Shown here: in pieces, positions 3,296 through 13,097 of the stretch
Layout of the letters: the number at the start of each line of letters is the position of its first letter
Position numbering within the stretch: the stretch's first letter is position 1
Program-made: the position numbers and the translations under genes
Virus record (IMG/VR): IMGVR_UViG_3300029787_000298
Location: 1 to 25,237 of that record
Reading direction: 5' to 3' (one strand)
Source of the DNA: a virus
Length of the DNA stretch: 25,237 nt
Notes under the pieces: generated by a model
Told to the model about the DNA's origin: nothing
Seen by the model: only the letters and a program-made list of their open reading frames with translations
The model's database searches: none

Positions 3296-3664
3296 TCAAA
3301 AGTATGGGTCGTCTCTATCCTCACTAGGTAATTTAATAACCTTTTTAATTCTGGCAAGGTCGTCTCTTATTTCCCTGATATCTTTAGCTAGACTATAAAA
3401 TATTTCAAAACCATTTGATTTATCTTCTGGATGGTTTTCATTATGTTCAGCTTTCAGATATGCTTCATTATAACTTTCAGCAAATATAACTTCTTCATAT
3501 CCACTATCTAGTTTTATATTCCATATAGACATTGAGCCTCCTACTGGTATAGAATCTAACTGTTCAAATGATGTTAGATTGCTTTTCATTGGGCGTGCTA
3601 CACTGGTTTGTGTTTGACGTTTAGGTTTGTATGGTTTGCTGTCACGGCGATAGAACTTAGTCAT
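3296..3664 (-). CDS. hypothetical protein (122 aa)
   Basis: A 122-residue protein with a basic N-terminus (MTKFYRRDSKPYKPKRQTQT), a central stretch SMSIWNIKLDSGYEEVIFAE that looks like beta strands, and a charged C-terminal helix (DIREIRDDLARIKKVIKL). Not recognised. The ATG overlaps the stop of the cysteine-rich gene by eight bases, so it is translated with the virion-protein operon above it. It ends facing the HNH gene with only 44 bases between, a pyrimidine-rich stretch without a clear hairpin. Confidence 0.72.
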   Translation of the reverse strand: MTKFYRRDSKPYKPKRQTQTSVARPMKSNLTSFEQLDSIPVGGSMSIWNIKLDSGYEEVIFAESYNEAYLKAEHNENHPEDKSNGFEIFYSLAKDIREIRDDLARIKKVIKLPSEDRDDPYF

Positions 3665-3824
3665 CTTCTAAGCAACAACCATCACCACAACATTCTACTT
3701 CATCTTCTTCTTCATCACACTCGCGTAAGCATACATCTTCTTCACACTCTTCCTTGTAGCAGTTATCAGTTTTGCAAGTAGCATCTGTTTCGCATTCACA
3801 TATACAATTGAAATTGTCAGGCAT
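3657..3824 (-). CDS. cysteine-rich acidic protein (55 aa), metallothionein-like composition
   Basis: A 55-residue protein read codon by codon from ATG 3822-3824 with a perfect AGGAGG five bases upstream. It contains 12 cysteines: CICEC at residues 7-11, then C17, C22, C27, C32, C36, and two CC pairs at 45-46 and 50-51 (CCGDGCC). Most of the rest is Asp and Glu, with almost no hydrophobic core. This composition suggests a metal-binding peptide or a disulphide-rich virion peptide; I know no named family for it. It sits between the basic virion genes and the 3664 gene, which it overlaps by eight bases. Confidence 0.72.
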   Translation of the reverse strand: MPDNFNCICECETDATCKTDNCYKEECEEDVCLRECDEEEDEVECCGDGCCLEDD

Positions 3825-3833
3825 GTTTACCTC

Positions 3834-4103
3834 CTATGTTTCTAGGTATTTAATAAGTTTAGCTAGGCTTCCTACCTTCTTTGCTACCTTCTTTGAATAC
3901 TTAGCTCGGCTTCCTACACCACCTGCCTTACGTTTCTTTCTGTTAGTCGCTGCTTTCTGACCGCGTGTTAATCCTGCACGCACTTTTTTGGGTAAGTATC
4001 TACCCCGTTTACCTTTAGGTTTCTTTTCATCACCTTCAGAAACGTAGTCCCAATCTTGTTCACCCCATCGCTTGAGTGACTTCTGTGACTTCTTCTCAGC
4101 CAT
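3834..4103 (-). CDS. small highly basic protein (89 aa), virion/DNA-binding type
   Basis: An 89-residue protein with about one third Lys and Arg. It carries RGRYLPKKVRAGLTRGQKAA followed by TNRKKRKAGG and alternating SK/KK runs. This Y-LP-K--R--LT--QK-A-N--K pattern recurs in short basic proteins or domains of marine tailed phages and giant algal viruses; the function is not established to my knowledge. DNA condensation inside the head is a reasonable guess. Its stop codon TAG is part of the AGGAGG of the cysteine-rich gene, and its start overlaps the previous stop as TAATG. Confidence 0.75.
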   Translation of the reverse strand: MAEKKSQKSLKRWGEQDWDYVSEGDEKKPKGKRGRYLPKKVRAGLTRGQKAATNRKKRKAGGVGSRAKYSKKVAKKVGSLAKLIKYLET

Positions 4104-4336
4104 TAGTTTCTGTAGCCCCCACCGGCTTTTTTATATCTCTGTGCAAGTAGTTGTGCCTTCCTTGCAGACCATTGTCCGGGTGCACCACCTTTACTACCAG
4201 CCTTGATAGAAGCAAACATTCGCTTCCTCATACCCGGCTTGGTGTAGTTCCCTGCTTTGTTTACAGTAGACTTAGACCTTTTTTTCTTTCTAGCTTTTTC
4301 AATTATACTTTTAAATATTAATATTGAGTTATCCAT
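4103..4336 (-). CDS. small basic protein (77 aa) with GGxPGQWSARKAQLL motif
   Basis: A 77-residue basic protein. Residues about 35-77 hold the recognisable module RKRMFASIKAGSKGGAPGQW, SARKAQLLAQRYKKAGGGY, which I know from many marine phages and large DNA viruses as a short domain of unknown function. The first 25 residues form an amphipathic helix (SILIFKSIIEKARKKKRSK). The ATG follows AGGAAAAA at good distance. It belongs to the series of basic genes from 3834 to 6050 that follow the protease and capsid genes, so a virion role is likely. Confidence 0.78.
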   Translation of the reverse strand: MDNSILIFKSIIEKARKKKRSKSTVNKAGNYTKPGMRKRMFASIKAGSKGGAPGQWSARKAQLLAQRYKKAGGGYRN

Positions 4337-4342
4337 TTTTTC

Positions 4343-5377
4343 CTACCATTTCGATTTGTCTGCCCAGTAAGCTGCTGACATCTTACCACGTTTTATGTTC
4401 TTAGCATGTCTTGCTTTGAATGACTTCCGTTTCTTTTTCATCTTTTCAGACTCACCCTTCTTAGGGTCACCTGCAGTCTTTGCACCCTGCTGTCCGTAAC
4501 GTATAGTTTTTATTTTATTACCTTCCTTAGCTACAACTATGTGTGACTTAGTAGGATGATTAGGAGTCCTCTTTGGTTTGTTATATCCTGACACTCCCGC
4601 TCTTTTAAGTCTAGGGTCAGCCCCTTTCCTAGGGGCTTTTACTAAAAAAGATTTAAATTTTTCTATGCTCTTTTTAAGACCTAGTTCTTTTTTCTCGTCA
4701 TAACTAAGACTAGTAAATGTAGCCTCTAAATTATGTAATGAGTCAGAGATTTTATTTTGTACCCATCCCGGTAATTCATCCTCATTGTCTATAATATTGT
4801 GAGTCATGTCAGCTAAATCAGATACTCTATCTAATTGTTTCTTAGCCATTCCACCTTCTTCTTCTTTTGCAAGCCACTCTTTAAGTATGCTTGTGTATGT
4901 AGGCTTCTTGCTACCCCTAGTGAATCGTGATAATAATTTAGCACCCATTTTTTTAGACTCAATATCTGGTAGATTTTTACCAGTAGGTTTTTCTTCTCCT
5001 ACTACAGAGGGTTTTTGTTGACTTCTTCCTAACAATTTATCCATTAGTCCTGAAGATACAACCTCTATCCTTACGTCTGGGTATCTAGTTTTCTTCATAT
5101 CTTTCTTAATCTTATAGTGATTTTGAGTGTGATGAGCAGATTCCTCCGTGTTCGGGTCTCCTAAATCTTGACCAGCTTGATTTACAATCTTAGATGGCGT
5201 TGGGTTAGATGGGTCGTCATAACTAACTGGAGCATGACGTACAAAGTCTGGCTCTACATATTCTGGAAAGCCTAACTCTTTTAAATGTCTTTTATGTTCA
5301 AGCTGTCTAGCGTGTTCATTCAAAAGAACACCAGCTTGTTTTTCACCCAATCCGGGCACTATTGATTCTTTAGCCAT
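4343..5377 (-). CDS. virion-type protein (344 aa) with basic C-terminal module
   Basis: A 344-residue protein. The middle (about 180-225) has AKKQLDRVSDLADMTHNIID and ELPGWVQNKISDSLHNLEA, a helical domain that in other marine phages occurs in head-associated proteins. The C-terminus (about 275-344) has KTIRYGQQGAKTAG, then KRKSFKARHAKNIKRGKMSA and AYWADKSKW, another recurring basic module of unknown function. A GYNKPKRTPNHPTKSHIV stretch links the two. The start ATG follows AAGGAG by nine bases and overlaps the previous gene by eight bases. I infer a structural or DNA-binding role within the capsid; no enzyme motif is seen. Confidence 0.72.
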   Translation of the reverse strand: MAKESIVPGLGEKQAGVLLNEHARQLEHKRHLKELGFPEYVEPDFVRHAPVSYDDPSNPTPSKIVNQAGQDLGDPNTEESAHHTQNHYKIKKDMKKTRYPDVRIEVVSSGLMDKLLGRSQQKPSVVGEEKPTGKNLPDIESKKMGAKLLSRFTRGSKKPTYTSILKEWLAKEEEGGMAKKQLDRVSDLADMTHNIIDNEDELPGWVQNKISDSLHNLEATFTSLSYDEKKELGLKKSIEKFKSFLVKAPRKGADPRLKRAGVSGYNKPKRTPNHPTKSHIVVAKEGNKIKTIRYGQQGAKTAGDPKKGESEKMKKKRKSFKARHAKNIKRGKMSAAYWADKSKW

Positions 5378-6050
5378 TTGCCAATACTCCTTCTGCCCAA
5401 GACCTTATAGCCTTCTGCATTTTTTTACCTACTAATCCTGCTAGATATCTAGAGAATCTATCCTTACCTCCAAAGCCACCTGTTTTTGGTTTCGCTTTAG
5501 GTGCAGTAAACATAGGTCTAATTACTTTAGGTTCATTAACTAAGAATTGAGTTAACTCTCTTCCTTCACCCATTTCAGCTGACTGCACTTGGTCAGCTAT
5601 CTTTTGATATTCAGACGGGTTTCTAGCTATCCCGTATAATTCTTTCACAGCATCATCGTATGCCATTTTTCTTTTTCTAGCTGCCTCTTGTACAGTAGCT
5701 CTATATTCAGGTGTTTGTAGTTTCCTTCTTAACTTTTCTTTACGTTGTAAAGCTCTACCAGCTAGTGTTTCCGCTCTAGCTGGAGGAGTAGCAGCTCTTT
5801 GACTAGCTACTTCTCTGTCTATACGTTTTTTCTTCTTCCCTGCAGATGCAGAGTAAGACGTACCACCACTACCAGCAGACTGAGACGCAGCTTGTTCCGC
5901 TATCTTTCTAGCCCTTTTCTGACTATCTGTCATGGAGCTCTTAGGCTTTTTGACACTAGGATAGAATGGCTTACTAGGTTGCTTCTGAATACCAGCTACC
6001 ATTTCATGAAAGGCATCTTTTACTATATGATGTACTGTATCAGTTGCCAT
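5370..6050 (-). CDS. basic structural-type protein (226 aa), unknown
   Basis: A 226-residue, very basic protein. It opens with an amphipathic helix MATDTVHHIVKDAFHEMVAG that resembles the segment MDNVSNIVKQVFKSQV inside the long protein encoded upstream, continues with disordered Ser/Gly/Lys/Arg stretches and a helical ELYGIARNPSEYQKIADQV part, and ends in an amphipathic helix (RYLAGLVGKKMQKAIRSWAE). AAGGA precedes the ATG by six bases, inside the end of the upstream gene. Not recognised. The shared N-terminal pattern suggests a common binding partner or targeting signal among these virion proteins. Confidence 0.72.
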   Translation of the reverse strand: MATDTVHHIVKDAFHEMVAGIQKQPSKPFYPSVKKPKSSMTDSQKRARKIAEQAASQSAGSGGTSYSASAGKKKKRIDREVASQRAATPPARAETLAGRALQRKEKLRRKLQTPEYRATVQEAARKRKMAYDDAVKELYGIARNPSEYQKIADQVQSAEMGEGRELTQFLVNEPKVIRPMFTAPKAKPKTGGFGGKDRFSRYLAGLVGKKMQKAIRSWAEGVLANG

Positions 6051-6053
6051 TTA

Positions 6054-8723
6054 TTATCCTTGTTCTGTCTGTCTAGTTGAACCAGCTAATTTTCTAGCAG
6101 CTTGTCTTCTAGCAATCTCTTCCCTGTTTGCTGCTAGTGCAGCTGCTGCACCACCCGGTCCTCTTCCTCTTTGTGCCATCGTCTTTTTCTGAGGTTTAGA
6201 TGCACTAGGTTTAGTACCACTTAATTTAGTTGTTGTTGTACCTCCCATAGGTTTTTCACCAACAGTTTTTGGAGGTTTTGTTTTTCCTTTATCTCTGAAA
6301 CTTGCAGCTGTCTGCATAGCAGTAGGTTCTTTCTTAGGAGCAGGAGCACTAGGTCTTGTAGTACCAGTCCTTCTCATCCGTTGTTCTTCCATTCCACTAC
6401 CAGCTACTCTCTTTGGTACAGAAACTTCAGTTGTAGTCTTAGGTGCTTTAGGTGCTGATGGTCTACCAGCACTACCTGCAGGAGATGCAGGGTCATATCT
6501 TGTTGCTAATGTTTGACCTTTACCTGCTCTCTCTTTACTTCTAGCATACGCAGATTGCATAGCACCTAGGTTTTTCCTAGCAGCCTGTCTTTCTGATTCA
6601 AAATCTCTAGGGCTTACTCTTTGTTGCCCAGTGCCTCTTCTTGGAGTATCAGTACCGACTGGTTTAGGCGGTGTAAATTTTCTCTCTCTAGCTGCCGCTG
6701 ATTCAGCAAGTCGTTCTCTTTCAGCTGCTGGACCTTCTAGGTCAGCTTGCGATGGTTGAGGGGCATTTAATCTAGCTAGTAACTGTCTTTGAGTTTTAGC
6801 CCTTGCGTCTCTTTCTCTCTTTTTAGCACTAGCTTCTCTACCTTCAGCCATTCTTCTTTTTAACTCTTGTTCTGGAGTTTCTTTCCCTTCTTGTGCAGCA
6901 AGTCTTCTTTCTAAACTTGCAATTTTTTTCTGGTCATCAGTCAATTTTGGTTGTCTAGTCGGTCTTTTAACTGGAGGTAGTACATCTTTTGAAACCCATC
7001 TTTCATTTACAATGTCCCATACCTGACTCTTAAAGACTTGTTTAACTATATTAGATACATTATCCATAATGTCTCCCTTTGTCACACTCTTTGGTGCAGT
7101 TAATTTTTGAGGTTTACCTTTTGGTATGTCTCCAAGTTTTTTAGGAGTACCTTGTTGTCCTCTCCTTGCTAATAAATTTTGCATGCCACCTCTAGGTCTA
7201 CTACTGCCCGGTAGTGTTCTTTTAGTACCCCTGCTAGGTTTACTACTGCCCGGTAGTGTACGTTTAGTGCTAGTTTGAGGTTTGCTAGGTATTCCTTTCG
7301 GTCCTCCAGAAGGGGTCCTTCTTAAATCAGTTAACTTTCTTTTCCTAGCAGCTCCTATACCTCCCGCACTTTTTCTAGCAGATGCACTTCTACTTATTGC
7401 ACCTAGTGCTCTTTTAGTGGCTCCGATAGTTCCTCTACCTCTTCCACTTCTACCTAGTCCCGCTCTTGATAACATTTTTCCTGCAGTTTTAGCAGTTCGT
7501 TCACCTATTGATTTACTTCCTCCACGGATTGCACCTAAAGCACCAGCTCCTGCTGCTGCTCCTCTTATAGCACCACCTTGTTTTTTAGGTTGTTTTGGTT
7601 CTTGTTTTGATAAGAATTCTTTTTTCATATTGTAGGTCTCCTTTATACCTTCAGTGATTTTATCTCTGTATTTATCGCCTTTAGAATCATCACTGAAGTT
7701 CTTAAAGCCTTTCTTTTTAGCCATAGCCGTTGCGATTGCAAAAGGATTTATTTTTTCCTTTCTTTTTTCCATTGACATCTTTACAGGCATACCAATGTTT
7801 CCAGTAACATTTGCTGGCTTTGGAGGTGTTATAGCTTTAGGCATTTTACCTGCTGCTCCTGCCATCATTGGTGCTTTTGATATCCAATTGTTAAACATAT
7901 CAATATGATTTATGTCTTCTTTTGATATAGCTATATATTCTGTTTGTATAGACGGAGTAGGTTCTGAATGATTTGTTAGACAACTACCATCAACACAAGA
8001 ACCCGAAGCCTTATCACCTTTCAATAATTCAAAGTGTGCTCCCTGATTAACTCCCTTTTCACATATGGTTACTTCTGCTAGTTCCATATCATCTACTTGT
8101 AATACATTACTACCATCAGATTTTTTAATATCTTTACTTTTAGTTGCACTACCAGCAATTGAATATGAACTCATGCCACCTTTTTCAATTTGGTCTCTTA
8201 CTCTTGTAGAGATTTTAGTATCTCCTCTCAATTCAGATATAAAAAATAACCCATTTTCATCTACACCACTCTTAAATATATTACCTGACTTACTTATATA
8301 AGCAGGGAGTGCGTGTCCAACTTGCACATCAGAGTGCATAACCATTACATTTCTAGCTCTGAAGTTCTTCATAAACTTCTTAAATGCTTTTTTCAATGCC
8401 ATAGTGGTGATGAGATGTCCTTCTCTATCTACTAATTCAACAGATGCTGGACCACCAACTACCATTGGTCTAGTGGTTTCATCTTCGTCTAATCCATCTG
8501 CTGCCTCTGTGTATGTTTTATTAGAAGGGTAAGCTCTAGCTAAAGTAATAACCTCAGCAGGCGATGCTAATCCAGCCTCGTGTAATCTCTTAAATTCATC
8601 TAAGGCATCAGCAATATCCTCTAAAGTGGTCTTACCTGCCTGAGCCTTCTCTAAGAATGAGACCGTAGCATCTTCTGATATCCAGTTATTAAACTCTGTT
8701 TTTGTTTCAGCTAATGTAACCAA
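6054..8723 (-). CDS. prohead serine protease fused to a long basic disordered tail (889 aa)
   Basis: The first 235 residues look like a phage prohead protease of the XkdF/prohead-protease type: residues 91-120 lead into VMVMH130SDVQVG, then KGGMSSYSIAGSA (Ser185-Ser188 region) and MELAEVTICEKGVNQGA. In this family a conserved His and the Ser of the S-x-x-G segment form the active site that trims scaffold and capsid proteins. The remaining 650 residues are unlike a normal protease: Lys/Arg/Ala/Gly/Pro-rich, low complexity, with repeats such as KRTLPGSS and one helical charged region near 585-690. The start is TTG at 8721-8723, five bases after a perfect AGGAGG. Two in-frame internal ATG codons have strong SDs, so shorter products may also be made. 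Protease genes normally precede the capsid gene; here it follows by 2 kb. Confidence 0.78.
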   Translation of the reverse strand: MVTLAETKTEFNNWISEDATVSFLEKAQAGKTTLEDIADALDEFKRLHEAGLASPAEVITLARAYPSNKTYTEAADGLDEDETTRPMVVGGPASVELVDREGHLITTMALKKAFKKFMKNFRARNVMVMHSDVQVGHALPAYISKSGNIFKSGVDENGLFFISELRGDTKISTRVRDQIEKGGMSSYSIAGSATKSKDIKKSDGSNVLQVDDMELAEVTICEKGVNQGAHFELLKGDKASGSCVDGSCLTNHSEPTPSIQTEYIAISKEDINHIDMFNNWISKAPMMAGAAGKMPKAITPPKPANVTGNIGMPVKMSMEKRKEKINPFAIATAMAKKKGFKNFSDDSKGDKYRDKITEGIKETYNMKKEFLSKQEPKQPKKQGGAIRGAAAGAGALGAIRGGSKSIGERTAKTAGKMLSRAGLGRSGRGRGTIGATKRALGAISRSASARKSAGGIGAARKRKLTDLRRTPSGGPKGIPSKPQTSTKRTLPGSSKPSRGTKRTLPGSSRPRGGMQNLLARRGQQGTPKKLGDIPKGKPQKLTAPKSVTKGDIMDNVSNIVKQVFKSQVWDIVNERWVSKDVLPPVKRPTRQPKLTDDQKKIASLERRLAAQEGKETPEQELKRRMAEGREASAKKRERDARAKTQRQLLARLNAPQPSQADLEGPAAERERLAESAAARERKFTPPKPVGTDTPRRGTGQQRVSPRDFESERQAARKNLGAMQSAYARSKERAGKGQTLATRYDPASPAGSAGRPSAPKAPKTTTEVSVPKRVAGSGMEEQRMRRTGTTRPSAPAPKKEPTAMQTAASFRDKGKTKPPKTVGEKPMGGTTTTKLSGTKPSASKPQKKTMAQRGRGPGGAAAALAANREEIARRQAARKLAGSTRQTEQG
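7065..7077 (-). promoter_or_regulatory. internal ribosome binding site and in-frame ATG at codon 553
   Basis: Inside the 889-residue gene GGGAG stands five bases before an in-frame ATG (7065-7067). Starting here would give a 337-residue basic protein whose N-terminus MDNVSNIVKQVFKSQV resembles that of the separate downstream gene product at 6050. This is as good an SD as many true starts in the window. Confidence 0.5.
7201..7259 (-). repeat. 42-base tandem repeat inside the protease-tail gene
   Basis: CTACTGCCCGGTAGTGT occurs at 7201-7217 and again at 7243-7259, 42 bases apart, and the bases in between are also similar. In protein it gives two copies of KRTLPGSS in 14-residue units. It is a short in-frame duplication in the disordered region. 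Confidence 0.75.
7626..7643 (-). promoter_or_regulatory. internal ribosome binding site and in-frame ATG at codon 366
   Basis: AAAGGAG lies nine bases before an in-frame ATG (7626-7628) where the sequence turns to MKKEFLSKQEPKQPKKQGG. A product from here would comprise only the basic disordered region (524 residues), without the protease. Confidence 0.45.
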
Positions 8724-10804: not shown

Positions 10805-12196
10805 CTATGTGTTCAAGTCTTGGATTTTAGCGTGAACGTCAAACCTGTAAGCTCTGAACTCTGCCATAGTGTATAGCAAACCTCTGACTACAAGTGCGTC
10901 AGCTGCGAAGTAATCTCTGTTCTCAATATACTGAGTAGGTTGAGCCACAGCGATTTCAAGGTAGTCAGTGTCCAACACATATACGTTTGAACCCTGTTTT
11001 CCACCACCAGCTGCTAATTCTGATTTTGTAGTATCAGCATCTGGCAAGATTGGAATACCTTGGTAAGTTGCGAGAACTAGTCCAGTTCTTGTACCCGGAA
11101 AAGTCTTTTCAGACCCTACTCCTACTTGGTACTCTTCCTGTCCCATGTATCTCTGTTGAGAGTTAAGTAATCTCTCTAGTTTGAAGTATTGGTCGTGACC
11201 CATAAGAATTAACTTAGGTTCTCCACCATTTGTTCTGATTGCTTGTATACAATCGTCAAGTAGGTTTAGAGATAGGTCTCTTCCAACACCACTGTTACCT
11301 TTTACAGCAGCAGCAGCACTGAACGTACCAGAAGTTCTTTGTTCTGAACCGCTAGTAGATACAGTCAAGTCATACGCTGAGTTCATTACTTGTACTCCGG
11401 CGTTTCCTTGTGATGCACTGTTGTTAATTGTAACGATGTCATCAATTGATGTTAAACCTGCTCTTGCAGTGATTGAGAGGTTATCAGCAACTGTTGTACT
11501 TCCTGCAGCTGGCGTACCTGACATTGTGCCAAGTGTTACGTCATTTCCAGAAATTGCTGAGATAGCTACGTTATTTGCAGTAGCTGCACCAGCATCGACT
11601 AACATTACAGTGTCACCGACTCTTAAGTCAGAACCATCTGTTACGTTAGCATCAGTTGCATCCGCACCGATTGCACCAGCGTTTGCTACCGAACCCGGTA
11701 GTAATAACTCTTGGTTCATTTCCTTGATGTGGTCAAGTTGTGCGTTTTCGTTTTCCAACGCTAATACGTCACCGACACCACCTTCTAATTGGGCAGTGTA
11801 CATTGCTTTCACAGAAGCACCGAATGAAGTTGAAATAATCTTAGGCAAGCTAGAGATTGTTTCTAGGTTTGAAACATCGATATCTGGTAGACTACCAGTC
11901 TCTGTTATTGGTCGAGACCTTTGGCTACCTCTATCTGTTCTTACCCTCCAACCAACGGTGTTACCGAAAACTGTTCTTGGGATTGCATTGAAAAATCGAG
12001 TTTGGTTGTTCAAAGACTGCCATACTTTTCTACCGAAAGTAGAAGTAAACACGTTATCCGCAGCTGTAGTCGTAAAGATTGCATCCGCAGTTCCTGTGTT
12101 CGCAGCATTAAAAGCCTTTGATAAATACTCAGGTCCGAATACAGACTGGTTTAGTCCTCTATTCGATTGAGCTATGTATTCACTTAGTGAAGGCAT
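10805..12196 (-). CDS. major capsid protein, HK97 fold
   Basis: A 463-residue protein that would form the icosahedral shell. The N-terminal third (SLNNQTRFFNAIPRTVFGNT, WRVRTDRGSQRSRPITETG, ISTSFGASVKAMYTAQLEG) and the C-terminal part (KLILMGHDQYFKLERLL, VYVLDTDYLEIAVAQPTQYI, LLYTMAEFRAYRF) read as the E-loop, P-domain and A-domain pattern of HK97-type capsid proteins. Residues about 170-245 are an Ala/Asp/Thr-rich, beta-type insertion (RVGDTVMLVDAGAAT) that probably makes a surface domain. It follows the scaffold-like gene and is closed by a strong hairpin. SD CGGAG lies upstream of the ATG. Position and length fit well; the assignment rests on sequence style and gene order. Confidence 0.85.
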   Translation of the reverse strand: MPSLSEYIAQSNRGLNQSVFGPEYLSKAFNAANTGTADAIFTTTAADNVFTSTFGRKVWQSLNNQTRFFNAIPRTVFGNTVGWRVRTDRGSQRSRPITETGSLPDIDVSNLETISSLPKIISTSFGASVKAMYTAQLEGGVGDVLALENENAQLDHIKEMNQELLLPGSVANAGAIGADATDANVTDGSDLRVGDTVMLVDAGAATANNVAISAISGNDVTLGTMSGTPAAGSTTVADNLSITARAGLTSIDDIVTINNSASQGNAGVQVMNSAYDLTVSTSGSEQRTSGTFSAAAAVKGNSGVGRDLSLNLLDDCIQAIRTNGGEPKLILMGHDQYFKLERLLNSQQRYMGQEEYQVGVGSEKTFPGTRTGLVLATYQGIPILPDADTTKSELAAGGGKQGSNVYVLDTDYLEIAVAQPTQYIENRDYFAADALVVRGLLYTMAEFRAYRFDVHAKIQDLNT

Positions 12197-12236: not shown

Positions 12237-13097
12237 TTAGAGATTTGCTATTTCGTCTGGCAAGTTCTCTGTTAAACCTTGTCTCTTGAACTCTTGCATT
12301 TTTCTAAGTTCTTTGTAAGACAAGTTTGTGAGTTGGTCGACTACATCATTCACAGTTTGAGCTTTTTTGATTGGAGTTTCATCTGCTCCAAACACGTTGC
12401 TCAATTGCGGTTTCTGTAATCCATTCTCTTCCTTGAATCCCATTTTTCGTAGTCTGTTCTCGGATTCGTCTTTTACAGCTTTTGAGATGTCTAATGACTC
12501 AATTTGTTTCTGTAATGAAGAAATTTGTTTGTATAACTTCTTCACTTCGTCTTCATCTTCGTCATCTTCGTGCATGGCTTTCTCTTTTTTAGGGAAACCC
12601 ATAGCTTTTTCTTCTTCGTCTTCATCTTCGTCTTCATCATCATCAGCTTTGTTCATACCCATTTTAGTGTATGCTTTTTCTTTTTCGTCTTCATCATCTT
12701 CATCTTCGTCATCCTCAGCTTGAATAGAAGCTTGTTGTTCTTCTATCTTTGTCCTTGGAGTAACAGTTTCAGATGAATCGTCAGCGTCACCTATGTAGTT
12801 AGGGGTAGCAGTGGCACCTTTTGTTGGGTCGCCTCCACCTACAACTTCTACATCAGTCCCGTCTACATCCATTCCTAAAGGATTTTCTGCTAATTCAATT
12901 AATACTGCTTTAGCAATATCATGTACTAGCTCTTCCTTTTCTAACTGTGCTTCTTCTTCTTTTGCAATTTCGTATGAAGCGTCATCATCAGCTTCAATTC
13001 TTGCATCCATTTTTTGCAACACTTCTGATAGTGCAGCTAATCCTAGCTGTGTACCTTCCATGTGCTTTTCAATTCTATTTAGAATTTCGTCAGACAT
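12237..13097 (-). CDS. scaffold-like protein with three acidic runs (286 aa)
   Basis: A 286-residue protein directly before the capsid gene, the usual place of a scaffolding protein. Residues 128-138, 152-163 and 177-184 are almost pure Asp/Glu runs separated by similar KEKAY/EEKAMGFPK/KEKAM linkers, then a coiled coil (YKQISSLQKQIESLDISKAV) and a basic C-terminal tail (LSYKELRKMQEFKRQGL), which in scaffolds contacts the capsid protein. The N-terminal 70 residues are helical. The ATG has AAGGAGG upstream. The acidic runs could hold open the basic inner capsid surface, or later be cleaved by the prohead protease. Role inferred from position and composition. Confidence 0.7.
   Translation of the reverse strand: MSDEILNRIEKHMEGTQLGLAALSEVLQKMDARIEADDDASYEIAKEEEAQLEKEELVHDIAKAVLIELAENPLGMDVDGTDVEVVGGGDPTKGATATPNYIGDADDSSETVTPRTKIEEQQASIQAEDDEDEDDEDEKEKAYTKMGMNKADDDEDEDEDEEEKAMGFPKKEKAMHEDDEDEDEVKKLYKQISSLQKQIESLDISKAVKDESENRLRKMGFKEENGLQKPQLSNVFGADETPIKKAQTVNDVVDQLTNLSYKELRKMQEFKRQGLTENLPDEIANL

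Follow-up and report, generated by a model that had tools for sequence, protein, structure and literature searches.

A conserved acidic, cysteine-rich miniprotein with metallothionein-like composition in the late operon of uncultured marine bacteriophages

We report a small gene, MINI, which encodes an acidic miniprotein of 55 residues with 12 cysteines in the capsid operon of an uncultured marine bacteriophage. MINI is a real gene and, by sequence comparison, represents a new family that is metallothionein-like in composition. The most likely, albeit tentative, reading of its product is that of a late-expressed phage protein with a metallothionein-like action. The sequence analyzed here (the window) comprises all 25,237 nucleotides of a 25.2-kb linear virus record of the IMG/VR type.

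MINI is a conserved gene under purifying selection

MINI (3657..3824, minus strand) begins with an ATG and translates as MPDNFNCICECETDATCKTDNCYKEECEEDVCLRECDEEEDEVECCGDGCCLEDD. Its cysteines (positions 7, 9, 11, 17, 22, 27, 32, 36, 45, 46, 50 and 51) are arranged as a CICEC motif followed by three C-x4-C steps, one C-x3-C step and two CC pairs; 22 further residues are Asp or Glu, His is lacking and the net charge is -19. Measured against the other scored proteins of the window (mean 0.69% Cys), 12 cysteines in 55 residues have a binomial probability of 4e-15. A first-pass annotation of this DNA had pointed out the length, cysteine pattern and Asp/Glu-richness of this product, and these stand in full, together with the exact coordinates and strand. 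The perfect AGGAGG that it had noticed is likewise present, as a 6/6 match to the Shine-Dalgarno sequence with a 5-nt spacer (3830..3835, minus strand; ACATAGGAGGTAAAC-ATG). Such a match is seen in only 3 of the 33 scored genes of the window, the others being the protease fusion and the putative scaffold discussed below, and it points to strong translation of MINI. The AGGAGG is retained in four related records (L082, L003, L097 and L099), with GGGGAG in its stead in L096.

Using three routes to reach relatives, namely BAS77, DS122 and the capsid protein, we recovered homologues of MINI from eight further IMG/VR records (L082, L003, L096, L097, L098, L099, L101 and L309), all of them situated between BAS89 and DS122, such that synteny extends across nine records. 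The alignment is shallow, with seven distinct sequences; in six aligned sequences 12 of 12 cysteines are invariant as against 7 of the 42 other ungapped columns, and synonymous changes occur in the Cys codons of the aligned homologues. Between the window and L082 the dN/dS ratio is 0.19; the remaining pairs for which dS could be measured span 0.09-0.56, and dS is saturated in four pairs. Only the MINI frame is open, the other five carrying stops in every homologue. The stop codons or cysteine losses in close relatives that the first-pass annotation had set as its test did not materialize, with every homologue keeping all 12 cysteines and none having an internal stop. In one subclade the protein additionally acquires a conserved tail, (I/V)(V/I/A)YDEFGC, whose last residue is a thirteenth cysteine. 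Thus, while the D/E-rich, low-complexity character of the DNA could evoke a chance ORF or an artefact of GAA/GAT repeats, a reading to which we attach practically no credence, it is ruled out by the conservation of frame, cysteines, Shine-Dalgarno sequence and nine-record synteny, the blocked alternative frames and the purifying selection, on which grounds we consider MINI to be a real gene.

The downstream partner of MINI is DS122 (3296..3664, minus strand; 122 aa). At the MINI stop and the DS122 start, the two genes share 8 nt both in the window (ATGACTAA) and in L082 (ATGGATAA); in L003, L096, L097, L099 and L304 they abut as TAGATG. DS122 has a poor Shine-Dalgarno sequence of its own (3/6 in the window), and MINI lies directly upstream of it in 8/8 records found with a DS122 profile. 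This overlap or abutment, the weak ribosome-binding site and the invariant order together suggest that the two genes are translationally coupled. The AlphaFold2 model of DS122 has a three-strand, two-helix core (pLDDT ~70-86), for which Foldseek found no fold match. Profile searches gave weak matches to inhibitors of RNA polymerase of the T7 Gp2 type (E 0.015 in Pfam; E 0.022 in PHROGs, 4/6 members); these being all sub-threshold and without fold support, we do not identify DS122 as a Gp2-like inhibitor.

MINI lies behind basic proteins in a late operon of a marine phage

The minus strand of the window carries genes for a terminase, a ribonucleotide reductase, a portal protein, a scaffold-like protein, an SU10-type capsid protein, a protease, four basic proteins, MINI and DS122, upon which an HNH-type ORF on the opposite strand converges. 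The major capsid protein (10805..12196, minus strand), our marker for finding relatives, is immediately preceded by the putative scaffold (12237-13097, minus strand), with long Asp/Glu runs and a net charge of -44. PROT889 (6054..8723, minus strand) combines a prohead protease of the Peptidase_S78 type with a lengthy basic tail of low complexity (net +75) in a single protein; in relatives, a protease of ~450 aa is followed by separate basic proteins of 372-1186 aa. Between the protease and MINI lie BAS226 (5370..6050, +24), BAS344 (4343..5377, +25, with a C-terminal phrog_7595 motif), BAS77 (4103..4336, +19, phrog_17747) and BAS89 (3834..4103, +21, matching phrog_14910, which is without known function), all on the minus strand. 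The first-pass annotation had correctly placed MINI behind strongly basic proteins, of which it counted three rather than the four found here (+19 to +25); its proposal of a virion operon is upheld by the prohead protease and the major capsid protein, which lie upstream in the same direction. By position, MINI would be expressed late. Farther along the minus strand is a gene for a pyrimidine dimer DNA glycosylase involved in DNA repair (1111-1578; PF03013, E 2e-22), which is also seen in relatives.

BAS77 is characterized by the motif KGGxxGQWSARKAQLLAxxYKKAGGGY, which is matched by at least 597 stretches of IMG/VR sequence and recurs in cultured Pelagibacter, Roseobacter, Methylophilales and HMO-2011 phages; proteins of this type are thus widespread in marine phages, those of the Pelagibacter and HMO-2011 types included. 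No near match of the window was found among cultured phages, and a host search with the capsid protein alignment against genome contigs returned no match. The capsid protein distantly resembles those of haloviruses and a Methanofastidiosa virus; however, the archaeal host that this might imply is disfavored by a related 81-kb contig (G030), which carries DnaG-type primase, DnaB helicase, family-A polymerase (PolA) and RecA, and on account of which we assign the virus to the bacteriophages.

Related and analogous cysteine-rich ORFs occupy the same site

A survey of 80 capsid-defined loci (720,591 bases) yielded 18 acidic cysteine-rich ORFs that passed our filter, 16 of which are located downstream of the protease, in the same stretch as MINI. 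At least two further groups can be recognized among such ORFs. First, family 3, from more distant relatives (L148, L150, L152 and L154), has 12-15 cysteines with CKCECNC among its motifs. Comparison of its profile with that of the MINI family (A1) gave a probability of 88 and an E-value of 3e-6, a score reached in 0/200 column shuffles, which at the profile level shows the two to be homologous. Second, an 8-Cys family (L126-L128, L131-L133 and L159) carries a CECSCEC motif; here, the hhalign score was reached in 58/200 column shuffles and homology with MINI is unsupported, for which reason we term it a positional analogue. In addition, L158 has a 6-Cys ORF immediately behind the protease. No acidic cysteine-rich ORF was found at this place in L136/L137 and L138/L141. 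The net charge ranges from -11 to -22 across the main family, family 3 and the 8-Cys family, and the related and analogous forms have 12, 13, 15 or 8 cysteines, the odd counts being 13 in one whole subclade and 15 in L152. In distant clades, small hydrophobic or amphipathic holin-like ORFs are found behind the cysteine-rich ORF (L154:6429-6566, L159:6815-7042 and L133:15085-15366 (+)).

We also considered a general tie of acidic cysteine-rich ORFs to BAS77 in marine phages, for which the cases are too few (3 in 161 kb near BAS77 and 3 in 437 kb far from it); within ~6 kb of BAS77 there is none in the cultured HTVC033P, HMO-2011 and HTVC034P.

A metal-thiolate reading of MINI

MINI has no match in Pfam, PHROGs, NCBIfam, PDB sequences, cultured phages or 84,980 prokaryote genomes, and no family model in Pfam or NCBIfam, including those for metallothioneins, matched it or its homologues; the first-pass annotation was therefore right that no family could be named for it. 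The resemblance to metallothioneins that it had seen in the composition also holds. Metallothioneins have been defined compositionally as proteins of up to 300 aa with 15-35% Cys and <10% aromatic residues, their typical motifs including CXC, CXCXC and XCCX (PMC7216689). At 55 aa, MINI has 21.8% Cys and 3.6% aromatic residues, with one CXCXC (CICEC) and two XCCX, which are invariant in the homologues. AlphaFold2 predicted no fold (mean pLDDT 39), as would be expected of a metal-free metallothionein, yet this is uninformative with so shallow an alignment. MINI is akin to the compositionally defined metallothioneins in small size, cysteine share, paucity of aromatic residues, motifs and want of a predicted metal-free fold, but differs from them in its net charge of -19 and in showing no sequence similarity to the modeled families, its metal binding being putative.

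Among known proteins, the bacterial SmtA/BmtA/PmtA group (PF02069) is comparable in size and cysteine content, and bacterial metallothioneins act as zinc stores in marine cyanobacteria (PMC9337993). However, members of this group carry metal-binding His, with SmtA also having a zinc-finger fold (PMC10612145), whereas MINI lacks His in the main family, is not predicted to fold in this way and gave no match in HMM or PDB sequence searches. The environmental metagenome metallothioneins of Ziller et al. 2017 (cited in PMC7216689), going by their description there, were likewise found by sequence and have new cysteine spacings; unlike MINI, they are not described in that account as phage genes.

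Cysteine is the sole residue type conserved throughout. The varying and at times odd cysteine counts would fit ligand clusters better than fixed disulphides. It is this combination of composition, cysteine-only conservation, spacing and count that leads us to favor a metal-thiolate reading. By analogy with known clusters, 12 cysteines are expected to hold about 3-4 zinc ions per chain. Accordingly phrased as a mechanism, the 12 thiols (CxCxC, C-x4-C and CC-x3-CC) of MINI, located in the reducing cytoplasm, would wrap several Zn(II) or Cu(I), roughly 3-4 in the case of zinc, so that metal-thiolate clusters arise along an otherwise unfolded chain; the surplus Asp/Glu would hold it off DNA and keep it soluble among the basic proteins, and its job would be metal buffering or hand-over during assembly or late infection. 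No metal-homeostasis gene was recognized among the scanned genes of the window and its relatives. Metallothioneins are not defined by strong acidity, and this property suggests that MINI has another role, either instead or as well: metal binding alone does not account for the acidity, which may serve to avoid DNA or to contact the basic neighbors.

Alternative roles

The main rival to the metallothionein reading, with which it could hold together, builds on this acidity. Here, MINI would be an acidic partner or chaperone that binds BAS77, BAS89 or BAS344 by charge and keeps them off DNA/RNA until packaging; structural zinc, in the form of at least one ion, may lend it rigidity, and it may accompany the basic proteins into the virion. 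We regard this as rather unlikely, although several features speak for it: the negative charge is conserved in all three families, the MINI of the main family is always directly behind BAS77-BAS89, its basic neighbors are strongly charged, and small basic proteins also precede family 3 and most of the 8-Cys ORFs. However, charge by itself needs no 12 invariant cysteines, no BAS77-like gene was recognized alongside the 8-Cys ORF of L159, and in distant BAS77 phages acidic cysteine-rich ORFs are not clearly enriched nearby, as the above densities indicate. Gene position is the sole pointer to a location of MINI in the virion. A more ambitious version, which we consider improbable, is that an acidic metal-thiolate family became fixed in the capsid operon of tailed phages, where a metallothionein has been co-opted for assembly or as part of the virion and its metal-linked negative clusters handle the basic virion proteins.

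Two other readings are less likely. First, MINI might be a thiol/redox or disulphide protein, whose cysteines either become oxidized, within the virion or upon lysis, or buffer thiols, perhaps together with a thioredoxin of the phage. Vicinal disulphides are possible at the CC pairs, and in L159 a thioredoxin-like ORF with WCGPC (L159:5624-5968 (+)) comes after the protease and a few genes ahead of the 8-Cys miniprotein; but it was seen at this single locus and may instead work with ribonucleotide reductase. By eye, MINI has neither a signal peptide nor a hydrophobic N terminus, and since no signal peptide is apparent it is probably cytoplasmic. This, the changing cysteine number (12, 13, 15 or 8) and its odd values do not agree with a disulphide-rich secreted peptide, and CxCxC is an unusual spacing for disulphides; we therefore hold this role to be unlikely. 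Of the three options offered in the first-pass annotation, then, the metal buffer fits best, the acidic partner is its main rival and the disulphide peptide is weakened by the spacing, changing cysteine number and lack of an apparent signal peptide. Second, MINI might be a zinc-containing regulatory or host-takeover miniprotein, acting for instance on host transcription or defence and made together with DS122. The tight coupling of the two genes, the weak Gp2-type matches of DS122 and the fast sequence change of MINI between clades are congruent with this; nevertheless, those matches fall far below the cut-off, Foldseek gave no supporting fold, and MINI is late rather than early by position, making such a role doubtful.

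Implications and other cysteine-rich viral proteins

MINI is unusual both as a phage gene and for its strong acidity. We found no description of a bacteriophage-encoded metallothionein in open-access full texts, which is weak evidence of absence as most subscription journals lie outside that scope. If MINI does bind metal, phages of this marine group would close their capsid operon with a metal buffer of their own, which would raise testable questions regarding zinc and copper use in late infection and the export of metal in virions. The locus is also a site in a phage genome that maintains acidic cysteine-rich miniproteins while their sequence changes.

A scan with the pattern CCG[DE]GCC uncovered no members of the MINI family beyond the known records; it did find other tailed proteins. 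The pattern lies at or near the C terminus of unrelated viral proteins, namely an SNase (L223:3943-4371 (+) and L250), an FkbM methyltransferase (L208:4171-4851 (-)) and a 75-aa ORF (L258:3241-3468 (-)), and is internal to a 98-aa ORF (L218:6192-6488 (+)). The two enzymes share CC-x3-CC with MINI at or near the C terminus; in them, however, it is appended as a tail to what is otherwise a common type of enzyme, the remainder of which is not homologous to MINI. It is as if CCG[DE]GCC behaves like a reusable tail. Finally, certain marine phages with BAS77 have short, CxC-rich, His-containing acidic ORFs (L013:1942-2088, L054:5864-5992 and L078:4306-4419 (+)), which have a metallothionein-like look and are without a Pfam or PHROG match.
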